Part shown: in pieces, positions 1-51,244 of the stretch
How positions within the stretch are numbered: the stretch's first letter is position 1
Layout: each line of letters opens with the position of its first letter
Source: Rhynchonema sp. JSB1_4
Lineage: Eukaryota > Nematoda > Chromadorea > Monhysterida > Xyalidae
Direction: 5' to 3'
Assembly: GCA_030248065.1 (NCBI GenBank)
Contig: JASAMV010004942.1
Coordinates: forward strand, 1-64,000
Length of the DNA stretch: 64,000 bases
The notes under the pieces: model-generated
Told to the model about the DNA's origin: nothing
Database searches by the model: none
The model's input: only the letters and a program-made list of their open reading frames with translations
Program-made: the position numbers and the translations under genes

Positions 1-3000
1 AACCCTGCTCAAATCCAAAGTGTGTCCCAAATAGACCCCAGGGGACATGTATTTGGCATTCTTCAAGTAAGATCAAAAACACTCACGTCGCCATTACACA
101 TCAAAGTGGAGCCGTTCTGTTCGCCCTCAGTCATGTCCGTCTGACGTCCAGCCACGGCAATCAGCCGACCGTCGTGATTCCAGCGCACGGTAGCAATCTC
201 AAAACATTCAATTGCACCACCACCGGCTCTGGCGAGTGGAATTGGGTTATGTTGGAAAGTGGTGTTACTGATGAGATTGGATTTTTGTGGTTCGATTTCC
301 AATTCCGACTAAAGTTTCGAGTTTGCTGATATTGACCACACAAAAATCCAGGCTTACTGGTGTCAACGACACGTGCGGTATGCGCTATGCGGAACGTTTA
401 TGGAATTTAGAAAATAAATAAGCGCCTCCAACTAGTCCGAAGACTGTCAAATTACACAGTCTGGTTAAAAAAACCACAAGTATATTTTTTAACTAATTCT
501 ATAGCATTAACCCTCTCTCTCTGTACCTCCATTAGGTCATCAACGTCACAGAGCAGATCAATAATTATGGGTTTGTCGAAACGGATCACACAATTATTCA
601 CTCTCTGCCTGTTATCATGCCAATTCAGGTGTATACCTCGGGCTCAGATCAACATTCCACCGATTACGCATACCAATTATTGCTCCGAAAAATTCTCAAC
701 CACCCAGAACCGCCTAACCAAACCACTGATCACTTTCGTGCCTCATCAGTTGCAAACATCCCCGGTCGAAGTAGATGACGAGTGCCGGATTCTCGCCCTC
801 CACTTGCGAGTGTTCACCGCGTGTGCCCGGCTGCCCCTTGTGTCCGCGGGCGGGCCGTCGTCGAATCCACCCAATGTTCCAATGTTTGCGTTTTGATCAA
901 TGGCGTGTACCATTGAATGCCGCGAAGTCGCACTATGTATATGGAAATGGGATATTGGTTTTGAAATACATTTTTTGAATTTGCCTTTTTTCGATATATA
1001 ATATAAACTCCCAAAATTATGTAAAAATGTTAAACTTTGTTGTGCAATAATACCTTGAACGTCATTCGGAATGCAGTAGATCTGCATTTTGCTCTGAAAA
1101 TGTATGAGAAATAAATAAAAAGAAAACAAAAAACTTTAAAAATAAACGAAACAATACGCCCCACCGAATAATTGCCATCCAAATCGTAAATGTGAATCTC
1201 GTTTGTGTCCATGCCAAACAGCAACCATTGACAATCGGCCGACCACTGAAAAATGAAGAAAAGTACGACACTCGCTCACTTGAAAATCAGGCAAAAAGAT
1301 GTTTCACGCACCTCAACAGCGGCCAAATGTCCGTGCACTTCTTTGCTCCACAGACGGTTTCCATCCACCGAACCGACTATCACCACGCCTGAATTTAGAA
1401 ATGAAACATCACTGGACGTCGGTATCGGGTCAGGGCCTGGTAAGGTCTACATAGATCGGTTTTAATGCTCACGCTGACTTTCAAAGAGCGATTTCAGATT
1501 TAGTCATGCCGCTGTAATTGTGTTTAACACCGCAGCCAAAAAAGGTTGTTCTTCCCGAGAATAAAGGGGCAAACGAATGTATAGTCCGTCCATCAGCTCA
1601 TGACACTTTGTCTTGCTGCTGGCTGGTTTGTTCCCTTCCTCCACGTTCTAATGAAAGAGAAATTGAGCGTGACCGATTTTCCAAAAAAAACAAAAAATGA
1701 TAGAATGTGTCGAAAAGGATTGAATTCGATCAAGATTGAAATTAAATTAAATTAAAATGGATAAAACACGTGGATTTCATAAAAATCACAAATTAGGAGC
1801 AAAATTAATTTTTTCGGAAACTCAATTTCTCTTTCATTAGAACGTGGAGGAAGTGAACAAATCGGCAGCAGCATCACAGAGTGACATGAGCTGATGGACG
1901 CACTATACAACATATGTACGTAAACAGAATACCGTGGTGCTTGTGCTGCTGCCTTTACGGCGCTCGAAGTTTGTGGCATCAGTAATTCCCAAGTCACGTG
2001 ACCAAGAACAATGAATGATACGGTTCGACACCAATACATGGATGGTCAAAATGACCGACTACTGCAATCTAACCGTCTTCATATACGATGCATATTTTCG
2101 ACCCATCCGAGCTCCAGGCCATGTCCGTGACCACCGACTTATTGCGGTTGTTGATCATTTCCTCGTACCACGATCCTGAATTTTCAAGGTTAAAGACGGC
2201 GCGGTTTCGAATTTGTTACCGCCCTTGCTTCCTGAAGTTCAACCATGGAACGATGAAAGCAACAAAAACTCAGAATGCCTAAAAAGTCCACGCCTATAAC
2301 CTTTATACATCATCCACACAATAATGAGCCCATTTGAATCGCTCGTGGTTAGTTTTTGATAGGCCTCGTTCCACGCGACCACTTCCACTGCGCCTGTAGA
2401 AAATTCGTGAAACATCAGCTATAGCTGAAGACGACAATGGCAATAAAGTCATAAAGCTGGCAAATTTAGGCACCTGTGTGTCCGTCAAGATTCTGATTGA
2501 CCTGAAGATTTGTGGGCGCAGCCAGGCCTCGAACCCCATCCTTAGCGGCTGAATTGTTTGAGAAATAAAGCATTTTGAGATTAAAAAAAAGAGAAAACAT
2601 TTTCAAACTGGGACAGCGCAAGAGCGCTGGCGATGAAAAGCTTTGTGCGTTTGGGTATATACAAACAGTGATAGTTTACGAAAAGCCATCCTCAGATATT
2701 TCCGGGATCACGTGACCATCTTGTCTACGTACATTCGCACTGATGATGACCTGATGCTCCACACGTCAGTCAGTGAAAACGTGGCGGAAATGGGCATCCA
2801 GAAAGCACATGCTCTACAATTCACACGGATATAATTGTTGTAAGTAAATGCAAGCTACGCCAACACGGTGCCAGATTTTTAAGGCATTGTATTCTACAGT
2901 GTAACATTTCCGAAATCAGCAGCCACGTATGAAAATGTTTCCACTAATCGGCCACCTCCGAAATAGAGCTCGTGTTGGCGGTGTTTGCCTATGTATTGAA

Positions 3001-3229
3001 TACATGGGTGGTGAAATCAAACAGCCGTGAGTGAGCGCGAGAAATGATGCATGGCATTTGGCAAGTGTTAACGATCTACGTTAACACGAGTTGAATATAA
3101 GCCGAATTTACCTGTTGCGGTGTCCAATTTCAGCACTTTCAACAGTCCGTCCTCCCCGCCAGCAGCAATGTATCCATCATTTCGACTCCACGAAATCGCG
3201 TGTAGGTCGACGTTGTTCGGGATTGAGAT
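1..3229 (-). CDS. WDR35: WDR35/IFT121 homologue, 5' part (3' end outside window)
   Basis: WDR35/IFT121 is a WD-repeat subunit of the IFT-A complex, which drives retrograde transport and membrane-protein entry in cilia. Exons read from the minus strand: 3229-3112, 2548-2474, 2393-2301, 2175-2074, 1388-1312, 1245-1165, 1093-1054, 932-724, 267-87 and 60-1. In order they encode family hallmarks: ISIPNNVDLHAISW, GGEDGLLKVLKL, RGLAAPTNLQVNQ, YQKLTTSDSNGLIIVW, MINNRNKSVVTDMAW, VGSVDGNRLW, LLFGMDTNEIHIYD and VRWNHDGRLIAVAG. Splice phases agree across most junctions. The initiator exon was not found; a possible upstream exon ends near 3287 with a GTAAGC donor, but its reading is unconvincing. Exon 932-724 changes frame internally, so either a 34-40 nt intron or a sequence error lies inside it. 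The last 26-nt gap (61-86) is also odd. The gene continues to the left. The family call is firm; exact exon ends are inferred by eye. Confidence 0.9.
2857..2986. repeat. Foldback repeat, CGCCAACACGAGC family (diverged copy)
   Basis: The left end reads ACGCCAACACGGTGCCAG and the right end is a diverged inverse ending CTCGTGTTGGCG. Related copies lie at 53201-53354 and 54004-54180. It lies in an intron of the WDR35 homologue. Confidence 0.5.
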
Positions 3230-49681: not shown

Positions 49682-51244
49682 CTATTGAACTTGTGCTGCC
49701 CTGAAAGTGTTGAATGTAATCCCACTAAATGATTCTGAAGAGCGAAGTGGCCCAGGAAGCTTGTGTTTGAAACCACAGAACCCGAAAGACTTTCTGACGG
49801 AACCGCCGGAAAGACAAACTGAACAGAGTGAAGTTTTTAAGCGGCAAGACCACCAAGGGTGGGCTGCTTTTCGCGCAAAGTGTGCATGCAGAACCCAGAA
49901 ATGTGTGCGTGAAATTCGATATGACACAGACACGCAGGACAAGAGCGAGCTGGAAGAGGATATGCGAAATGTCCTAGAGCACTCACTAATACAACACGAA
50001 GAATTGACAAGTTTGACCGAACTTCCATTTCTACATTTTTCTAACCTGCCCCCTTTCTTCTTGTGCTCTCGCTGTTTGTTATAGTGAAACGTGCACCACC
50101 ATTCTGCCAGTGTTTGTCTCTGACCGCCGTCGAATTTCGAATTTCTCCGATTCGATGTAACAATAAAGTCACTGTTCGCGGTTGTACCGCTGTCCGCGGT
50201 CAACGTGTACCGCGGTGGTTGTTGGCCGCACGACGAACCGCGGTAATAGCGCGGCTCTGACTCGTCGCGGTATTTATGCGGTACATTATACGGATCGGTG
50301 TGTTGAACTTCAACGGATGTGTTGCGTTTTCGAAGCGTTTGCGTCTTTAGCGGCTCGCTTTTGCACCGGTTATTGTTGTTATTGTTCTGTTGCATTTCGT
50401 AATATTTGTCAACCATATTGTCCGCCGCGCTACCGCCGAGCGCCTCGCCATTACTGGCTAGCTGATGTTTCATATAGAGTGTGTTAATGCGTTCGCGTTC
50501 GTATCGATCGAGCGTCGAGCGTTGACTGGCCGAATAGCGCGGGAATTCGTCGAAATTCAAATTCTGCACGATGACTGGCTGCTGCAACGGCGGCGGCGGT
50601 TGCGAGTACGTGCTTCGTGATTGGCTACCGTCATTATAGATCAATGAAACATCACGATGATTATTGATTGGCAATCGATTACCGTGTTGATCATAATACA
50701 CGTAGGACTTTTGCTGGTGACGTTTGGCGCGCTTCGAACTCGGGTTGGTGTTCCAATACTGAAGCAGGCGCGACGTTAGCGACGTTTTTGACAGCCAGGC
50801 AGCGAATTTATGCTGTGCGCGCGCTTGGTGACTGGCCGGAGTCAAATTGGTTTGCGGTAGCTGTTGCTGTTGTTGCTGTTGCAGCTGTAACTGGTAGCTG
50901 ACCGCAGTCGAGCGTCTTCGAGCTGTCTTGGGCACGTAGGTAGCGGCAGCAGAGTTCAAAGTGGTGCTCAATGTGCTAGTGCGACTACTTGAACCACCGG
51001 CGCCCTGACTTATACTACCGGACTCAACTGCTGCAGTTGCCGTTGGATCCTGTTGTTCTAGTTGACGTCTGTGGTGTAGCTCGGTGACTAGTGACTGTTC
51101 GCGCGTGCCACGTCGACTCGGCTGAACGGTTAGGTAATTCTGTTGTTGTTGTTGTTGCGGGCCGTAAGCGGCGTTGTTGTGGTTTAGACGCGCGTGGATG
51201 GGTTGCGACAACGGGAGGCCGGGTTCTGCGAGTTGTTGGGTCAT
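49682..51244 (-). CDS. Gln/Asn-rich protein of unknown function, first coding exon
   Basis: A 520-codon frame opens with MTQQLAEPGLPLSQ. It has poly-Gln runs near residues 33 and 120, a Ser/Thr-rich stretch, a basic patch KTARRRSTA, a segment SKTSLTSRLLQYWN followed by KRAKRHQQKSYVYYDQHGNR, an Asn run near 290 and a Tyr/Arg-rich part (YRDESEPRYYRGSS). I do not recognise the family. Low-complexity coding style matches the nearby FARP linker. Composition changes after about residue 387 (near 50085), so the exon probably ends there at an unplaced donor and the rest is read-through into an intron. Same strand as FARP and 3.5 kb upstream. It could be an upstream exon of that gene, but no splice link is evident. 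Confidence 0.6.
   Translation of the reverse strand: MTQQLAEPGLPLSQPIHARLNHNNAAYGPQQQQQQNYLTVQPSRRGTREQSLVTELHHRRQLEQQDPTATAAVESGSISQGAGGSSSRTSTLSTTLNSAAATYVPKTARRRSTAVSYQLQLQQQQQQQLPQTNLTPASHQARAQHKFAAWLSKTSLTSRLLQYWNTNPSSKRAKRHQQKSYVYYDQHGNRLPINNHRDVSLIYNDGSQSRSTYSQPPPPLQQPVIVQNLNFDEFPRYSASQRSTLDRYERERINTLYMKHQLASNGEALGGSAADNMVDKYYEMQQNNNNNNRCKSEPLKTQTLRKRNTSVEVQHTDPYNVPHKYRDESEPRYYRGSSCGQQPPRYTLTADSGTTANSDFIVTSNRRNSKFDGGQRQTLAEWWCTFHYNKQREHKKKGGRLEKCRNGSSVKLVNSSCCISECSRTFRISSSSSLLSCVSVSYRISRTHFWVLHAHFARKAAHPWWSCRLKTSLCSVCLSGGSVRKSFGFCGFKHKLPGPLRSSESFSGITFNTFRAAQVQ

Follow-up and report, generated by a model that had tools for sequence, protein, structure and literature searches.

The stretch of DNA analysed here, 64,000 nt in length and referred to below as the window, contains three host genes recognised by homology and a fourth region assumed to be a single gene. 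A WDR35/IFT121-like gene, truncated by the contig start, occupies 1..3262 on the minus strand. An organic anion transporter gene (OATP/SLCO) lies at 14484..23853 on the plus strand, and a partial gene for a FARP-like RhoGEF/PH protein, with approximate bounds, at 30472..35379 on the minus strand. The fourth region, at 39678..51262 on the minus strand, carries two long ORFs of 959 and 526 aa; its gene structure was inferred both in the first-pass annotation of this DNA and in the present analysis. A Pfam search of these two ORFs, and of an ORF at 9069-9704, returned no family.

Scattered over the window are 19 exact copies of the decamer TGATGTTTCA, 7 on the plus strand and 12 on the minus strand. 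Three minus-strand copies are in sense orientation in WDR35, two of them in introns (1402..1411 and 2408..2417) and the third at 3243..3252; the AG of the next acceptor, supported by homology in each case, ends 13, 14 and 13 nt further on, respectively. The copy at 9838..9847 (plus) is outside the recognised genes. In OATP, an antisense intronic copy at 16599..16608 (minus) is accompanied by three sense copies on the plus strand, one about 2 nt before a predicted acceptor (18846..18855) and two in introns (19552..19561 and 19994..20003). The FARP-like gene region has sense copies at 30695..30704 and 34310..34319 (both minus). In the fourth region, sense copies lie at 43186..43195, where the word is followed by G and would form a possible acceptor TTTCAG, and at 44115..44124, 45253..45262 and 46200..46209 (all minus), with an antisense copy at 43777..43786 (plus). 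The remaining four genic copies are within the long ORFs: 39882..39891 (minus, sense) and 41470..41479 (plus, antisense) in the 959-aa ORF, 50645..50654 (minus, sense) and 50463..50472 (plus, antisense) in the 526-aa ORF. Seventeen of the 19 coordinates in the first-pass annotation were exact; 39892 and 44114 had to be corrected to 39882 and 44115, being off by 10 and by 1. Its count of 18 copies within four genes stands, with 14 sense and 4 antisense (two-sided P = 0.03). Codon bias, which it had also rejected, is excluded since the long-ORF copies run in both directions, the two sense copies reading D-V-S and the two antisense ones M-K-H in the ORF.

The excess of the decamer is a property of the whole genome. 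In 203.9 Mb, TGATGTTTCA occurs 37,556 times (18,829 on the plus and 18,727 on the minus strand), or once per 5.4 kb, vs 345 times (172 and 173) for the reversed word used as control. This is a 109-fold excess, far from a count near expectation, and the massive over-representation claimed from the window is thus borne out. Within the window TGATGTTTCA ranks fifth among all 10-mers, after poly-A and three GATCCC-type words, and 20 further copies carry one mismatch. The GATCCC-type words form arrays there. At the genome rate 11.8 copies would be expected in the window, so that its 19 are a modest surplus (P = 0.03), and the copy-free part at 51.3-64 kb, as first noted, is unremarkable at that rate. 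In a 264-kb sample, made up of the window and 20 stretches of 10 kb (10 from contigs in the genome-wide listing of decamer matches, 10 from contig starts picked by number), there are 59 copies vs 1.8 expected, while the word changed at position 4, 5, 6, 7 or 9 occurs at most 4 times per change. Counts across the twenty 10-kb stretches look random (mean 2.0, variance 2.2).

The sequence examined amounts to about 363 kb out of 204 Mb, in partly overlapping loci. Aligned in register, the flanks of window copies are 0.257 identical (171 pairs), vs 0.252 for random pairs, and in BLAST of the 19 window loci against the ~363 kb each locus matches only itself across the motif. A repeat or transposon origin of the window copies is rejected on these random flanks and unique neighbourhoods, in line with the earlier claim that they share no larger repeat. 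It is extremely improbable that the copies at large come from a family of repeats or mobile elements that escaped recognition. A foldback element, about 170 bp long, does contain two inverted copies of AATGTTTCA, and outside the window a few decamers sit in duplicated sequence; however, the foldback element lacks TGATGTTTCA, and all 19 window copies are in unique sequence.

Theoretically, TGATGTTTCA could act at the RNA level in introns, for example as an extended branch point with a pyrimidine stretch before 3′ splice sites. The CTGAT in the decamer conforms to YTNAY, the branch consensus. The copies ahead of WDR35 and OATP acceptors and the sense bias are consistent with such a role. So is the trinucleotide YAG 13-14 nt after the word in 10 of 65 distinct flanks vs 2.9 expected (6 of 46 vs 2.0 for copies outside the window, P = 0.017). 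Flanks having 20 bases in common with an earlier flank were removed before counting; for YAG this took out 11 rows, many from overlapping loci, with one of the near-duplicates L027/L037 among them. However, most copies are elsewhere, some of them in exons, and most of the OATP acceptors inspected lack the word. Nor is G enriched directly after it (8 of 59 in the 264-kb sample), which excludes TGATGTTTCA as the splice acceptor itself. The four antisense genic copies compare with 0.04 expected at the control rate over a generous 45 kb, and therefore argue for a DNA-level element. An intron element would also leave the U1 promoters described below unaccounted for, and we consider it distinctly unlikely. 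The first-pass annotation had placed the word in introns, beside splice junctions and in open frames, all of which is seen in WDR35, OATP and the long ORFs. Its broader statement that the word is tied to gene structure stands in part: the copies lean modestly towards the sense strand and some of them precede possible 3′ acceptors, but there are also antisense and exonic copies, at least one copy outside recognised genes, and a random spread over the twenty stretches.

The snRNA genes provide a functional tie that the first-pass annotation could not see. In 7 of 10 U1 loci, ATGTTTCA ends 34-35 nt before the RNA start, and in two of these seven (L047 and L050) the full TGATGTTTCA is at this position; only 0.9% of random 45-nt stretches contain ATGTTTCA. 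U1 loci L045 and L049 are without the element. Among the U2 loci, L006 has ATGTTTCA at 37 nt and L002-L005 have TGATGTGACA at 38 nt, and both U6 upstream regions examined carry TGATGCTACA. The majority of the U1 copies, and two of those of U2, have a second block, GAAYGACT, a few bases downstream. After the decamer it occurs in only one of 65 distinct flanks, that of U1 locus L047. In the form usual at U1, TTATGTTTCA, the element is not dispersed (2 vs 1.3 expected in the 264-kb sample). Judged by sequence and position, TGATGTTTCA is the core of the snRNA promoters (PSE) of this genome, and SNAPc presumably binds it. It shares with the PSE its sequence, in TGATGTTTCA/ATGTTTCA, and a set distance to U1 and U2 RNA starts; unlike the PSE, it stands tens of thousands of times away from snRNA genes. 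DNA uptake words of bacteria are also 10-mers in huge excess, evenly spread and tolerated in coding frames. This is an analogy only, as the present word is a promoter element in an animal genome.

On exon homology, and known from exons only, the genome has a PIWI-clade gene. The best 11 of 36 PDB matches of one exon are Piwi (E 9e-15, vs 1.8e-4 for AGO2), and the matches of a second exon include Piwi entries but no argonaute. In a search with PIWIL1, two AGO-like loci (C802 and C3198) score 52 bits, vs 50-54 for the PIWI loci.

As to the source organism, in AU tests on the OATP gene, placement within Rhabditida (p 0.001), within the clade V sample (p 2e-5) or alongside Plectus (p 0.0017) is rejected, while a grouping with the two clade I species is not rejected (p 0.30). 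A first tree had been seen before the tests. They concern one gene, hand-joined from predicted exons, and therefore Dorylaimia, Enoplia and basal Chromadoria are indistinguishable. FARP, intended as a second clade marker, gave 6 matches, the 4 named ones being from arthropods. The SL1 Rfam model matched neither this genome nor any control genome; the exact SL1 22-mer is absent from the genome, and at up to 3 mismatches there are 2 matches, both with 3, the same number as in the control. By the tree of this one gene, OATP, the organism is apparently a nematode outside Plectida plus Rhabditida.

A PSE-related word in a genome with PIWI can be compared with the piRNA promoters of nematodes. According to published work, ATGTTTCA is one of the known core (Ruby) motifs of C. 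elegans piRNAs and drives 21UR-2502, the C. elegans spacer is 35-42 nt, and the Ruby motif goes back to that of SNAPc. Published work also describes dispersed, intronic piRNA loci, in P. pacificus 97% intronic and about equal in the two orientations. Against the C. elegans consensus core, the core of the decamer matches at 7 of 8 bases, and it is identical to the working variant. A GTTTC core motif of the kind seen in CTGTTTCA and ATGTTTCA is in great excess in this genome. As at the dispersed loci of the Pristionchus type, the copies of TGATGTTTCA are dispersed and many apparently lie in introns; the genome also has a PIWI gene, and the word is related to the SNAPc motif of snRNA genes. There are also differences. 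First, the word has a fixed upstream TG, and the C. elegans consensus core CTGTTTCA is not enriched (26 vs 18.7 in the 264-kb sample). Second, in 66 distinct flanks pooled over the C. elegans spacing range, 5′-T is found 113 times vs 137 expected and YRNT 29 times vs a mean of 39 in other windows, and no A/T-rich spacer was found (A+T 0.528 vs 0.516). Only at the one offset that is optimal in C. elegans is there a slight excess (8 of 66 vs 4.8, z 1.7, not significant; 16 of 144, z 2.0), and no positional signal from -160 to +170 rose above random sets. The copies are therefore not classed as 21U-RNA loci. Third, 4 of 18 genic copies are in long ORFs and 14 are sense, in contrast to P. pacificus, and the organism is apparently outside clade V and Plectida. 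In Plectus, which is described as having bipartite SNAPc-like piRNA promoters, the piRNA word is likewise nearly that of the species' own snRNA motif; however, both motif halves are present there, whereas GAAYGACT is missing from the dispersed flanks examined here, and about 3,000 sites are given for P. murrayi vs 37,556 decamers in the present genome.

Our preferred reading, held with moderate confidence, is that TGATGTTTCA is the snRNA-promoter core and that its dispersed copies are minimal Pol II promoters for very short RNAs, most probably piRNAs. It draws on the excess, the sharp 10-base specificity, the random flanks, the position at U1 and U2, the U6 relative and the PIWI-clade gene. 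A SNPC-4-like SNAPc would bind the dispersed copies, the half-site sufficing without the GAAYGACT block. Transcription would start about 35-37 nt downstream, as at U1 and U2, and the very short product would belong to the piRNAs and not to some other class of tiny RNA. The YAG excess at 13-14 nt is not predicted by this model. Other observations speak against it: the lack of 5′-T/YRNT, of an A/T-rich spacer and of any other positional signal, the sense bias, the copies in long ORFs, the two U1 loci without the element, and the AGO-like loci that nearly match the PIWI scores.

Two other readings accept a DNA-level element. The copies could be sites of a sequence-specific DNA protein serving chromosome architecture, meiotic pairing, sex-chromosome marking or gene regulation, with no start of transcription and with snRNA promoters merely sharing the protein or the word. 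The sharp 10-mer, even spread, both orientations and exonic copies fit this, as does the failure to find a downstream initiation signal in the flanks. We regard it as rather unlikely, given that the word precedes the U1 and U2 starts by a set distance, as a promoter would, that PIWI is present and that the match to the C. elegans core is close. Alternatively, the copies might be ultra-short transcription units of a class of their own, driving tiny SNAPc-type RNAs other than piRNAs. The identity with the PSE in the absence of 21U geometry is what such units would show, but the PIWI-clade gene argues against them. To our knowledge, no SNAPc-type tiny-RNA units on such a scale are known outside piRNA loci, and we judge this reading improbable.

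In the surveys and reviews consulted, PIWI and 21U-RNAs are reported absent outside clade V, plectids being the sole exception (Sarkies 2015, PMC4323106; Beltran 2019, PMC6436959; PMC6468775; PMC9071541); beyond Plectida plus Rhabditida, these surveys record no PIWI and no Ruby motif. If piRNA promoters are the right reading, a plausible though tentative scenario is that a nematode branching off outside Plectida plus Rhabditida retained PIWI and multiplied its snRNA-promoter core into some 37,000 one-RNA piRNA genes with a start rule of their own. The Ruby system would then reach back nearly to the root of Nematoda, with secondary loss behind its absence from the sampled clade I/II species. 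A PIWI gene together with a Ruby-like word every 5 kb or so, in an animal apparently outside clade V and Plectida, would place the origin of promoter-driven piRNAs earlier. There would be thousands of tiny piRNA promoters in a branch of the worms believed to have lost piRNAs, and the genome, with the same word at both, offers a place to study how snRNA promoters gave rise to those of piRNAs.

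The decamer TGATGTTTCA is over-represented throughout this genome. The first-pass annotation had listed 19 copies in the window; all of them are present, with two coordinates amended (39892 to 39882 and 44114 to 44115). Its claim of over-representation is confirmed as real and genome-wide, since across 203.9 Mb (5,747 contigs) the word occurs 37,556 times versus 345 for its backwards spelling, a 109-fold excess and a density of one copy per 5.4 kb. In a 264-kb set comprising the window and 20 stretches of 10 kb, 59 copies were found, where 4-mer and 3-mer counts predict 1.8. The word is sharp: in this set a substitution at position 4, 5, 6, 7 or 9 yields at most 4 copies each, with mild tolerance of C at position 1, A at 2, C or G at 8 and G at 10. 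The preceding base is C in 30 of the 59 copies. Because the variance across the twenty stretches (2.2) is close to the mean (2.0 per 10 kb), the decamer is unclustered at that scale.

The 19 window copies have flanks as dissimilar from one another as random DNA (identity 0.257 vs 0.252), and BLAST against the 363 kb of sequence read, in which loci partly overlap, detected no relative spanning the motif for any of them. Outside the window, a few copies do sit within duplicated stretches. A foldback element about 170 bp long, found at six places in the 363 kb (5541-5710 and 32252-32415 in the window; loci L005, L006, L025 and L029 elsewhere), has two inverted AATGTTTCA centrally; what it carries is a near-copy of the word rather than the decamer itself. 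It may be a non-autonomous transposon.

Relatives of the word precede snRNA genes. For U1 (10 matches, 9 above the cut-off and L051 below), ATGTTTCA ends 34-35 nt 5′ of the RNA start at 7 of 10 loci. The upstream element reads TTATGTTTCA at L042, L043, L044, L046 and L048, is the full TGATGTTTCA at L047 and L050, is weakened at L051, and is absent from the upstreams of L045 and L049, which are alike. For U2 (9 matches, 8 above the cut-off and L009 below), ATGTTTCA lies at 37 nt in L006 and recurs with one change in L007 and two in L008, while TGATGTGACA (L002-L005) and TGACGTGACA (L001) lie at 38 nt. In both U6 upstreams read, out of 9 matches, TGATGCTACA lies 46 nt before the start. Random 45-nt stretches contain ATGTTTCA at a frequency of 0.9%. 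Because TGATGTTTCA, ATGTTTCA or near-copies sit at a set distance before U1 and U2 starts and a relative precedes U6, TGATGTTTCA is, on sequence grounds, the core of the proximal sequence element (PSE) of this genome, the presumed SNAPc site. A few bases past the ATGTTTCA position, a second conserved block, GAAYGACT, is present at 6 of 10 U1 loci (L042, L043, L044, L046, L047 and L051) and at U2 loci L006 and L007; after the decamer it occurs in 1 of 65 distinct flanks, namely that of U1 locus L047. It is the TG form of the element that is dispersed, as TTATGTTTCA is not (2 copies vs 1.3 expected in 264 kb).

By homology, the window contains WDR35 (1-3262, minus strand), OATP (14484-23853, plus) and a FARP-like RhoGEF/PH gene (30472-35379, approximate bounds, minus). 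The fourth gene region, on the minus strand at 39-51 kb, contains two long ORFs (959 and 526 aa) that matched no Pfam family; four decamer copies fall within them, two per direction. Named relatives of the FARP-like gene are all arthropod (4 of 6 matches named); perhaps it is an animal gene retained here and lost in many nematodes. GATCCC arrays of 10-11 units lie at 15219-15288 and 16307-16366, where the ORFs show a similar Asp-Pro-rich frame. A worn, contig-internal GCCTAA array (26078-26147, about 12 units, 75% matches) has as its unit the complement of TTAGGC, the nematode telomere repeat. tRNA matches are at 32001-32072 (minus), 32571-32642 (plus) and 63777-63847 (minus).

Within the four gene regions, 14 of 18 copies are sense (P = 0.03), and the 4 antisense copies compare with 0.04 predicted by the control rate. 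Three copies in WDR35 are followed by a homology-supported acceptor AG that ends 13, 14 and 13 nt past the decamer, respectively, and the OATP copy at 18846 lies about 2 nt before a predicted acceptor; most other OATP acceptors inspected lack the decamer. Of 65 distinct flanks, 10 have a YAG whose end lies 13-14 nt past the decamer (2.9 expected, P = 0.0009), as do 6 of 46 flanks outside the window (2.0 expected, P = 0.017), versus 4 of 65 for the control words RATGTTTCA (3.7 expected). It is improbable that the decamer is an intron RNA element. The acceptor-adjacent subset, which a promoter reading would not predict, is worth reporting. Conjecturally, the word could arise by mutation most readily at the ends of introns, where TGAT- and TTTCA-like strings abound.

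The core motif of C. elegans piRNAs is given as CTGTTTCA, 21UR-2502 as sitting behind ATGTTTCA, and the spacer from motif to piRNA as 35-42 nt (Billi 2013, PMC3597512). Over the expected spacing range, pooled decamer flanks (n = 66) show no excess of T (113 vs 137 expected) or of YRNT, the C. elegans-type start signal (29 vs a mean of 39). The wider RATGTTTCA set (129 flanks) had the same outcome (T 244 vs 275, YRNT 59 vs 73). The pooled flanks contain no A/T-rich spacer, and no other positional signal around the decamer rises above random sets. Were every copy a C. elegans-like 21U locus, such signals would have appeared; with variable starts, or with activity limited to a fraction of the copies (in P. 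pacificus, 20% of motifs in active domains; Beltran 2019, PMC6436959), they need not. The copies are therefore not filed as 21U-RNA loci, but they probably work like them. That the units make another class of tiny RNA is hardly likely. A DNA-binding site without a promoter role, which would also be a sharp, dispersed word, is conceivable but rather unlikely.

A search with the human PIWIL1 domain matched several exons on each of contigs C1663, C4595 and C3368, with 34-54% identity and E values up to 1e-3. In this search the scores of two AGO-like loci are much the same (52 bits), so this ranking alone is not decisive, and the general Pfam Piwi model gives at most 45 bits at the three loci versus up to 99 at AGO-like loci. 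A 52-aa exon on C4595 has Piwi entries as its top 11 of 36 PDB matches (Drosophila Piwi, E 9e-15; AGO2, 1.8e-4), and another exon has Piwi entries but no argonaute among its matches. The 52-aa exon is decisive here: this genome carries a PIWI-clade gene. The three loci, closely alike in exon layout, are perhaps haplotypes or recent duplicates.

In the OATP search (7,995 candidates scored, 43 matches), all named-source matches to E 6e-27 are nematode, followed by vertebrates. The tree (546 columns, 18 rows) groups the window gene with nematodes (support 100/100) and outside Plectus plus clades III-V (94/97), leaving the order among it, Soboliphyme and Romanomermis unresolved. Three placements of the window gene are rejected by AU tests: among the clade V species sampled, beside Plectus, and inside Rhabditida. 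SL1 has no match in the genome within 2 mismatches. PIWI is described as missing from clades I and II (Sarkies 2015, PMC4323106), as found outside clade V in plectids only (Beltran 2019, PMC6436959), and, in a 2022 review, as lost from the other four clades (PMC9071541). We recognised no report of PIWI or the Ruby motif, the nematode piRNA promoter motif, in Dorylaimia or Enoplia in the accessible parts of the open-licence PMC literature.

Beltran 2019 (PMC6436959) argues that the Ruby motif descends from the SNAPc-binding snRNA motif, that both motif halves are retained at plectid piRNA loci and that Pristionchus-type piRNAs are scattered through introns of active genes. As in those nematode piRNA systems, the snRNA promoter and the dispersed word of this genome are related. 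Each dispersed TGATGTTTCA copy would be a minimal PSE-type promoter whose product is probably a piRNA, a reading that we consider the most likely, by a modest degree of confidence.
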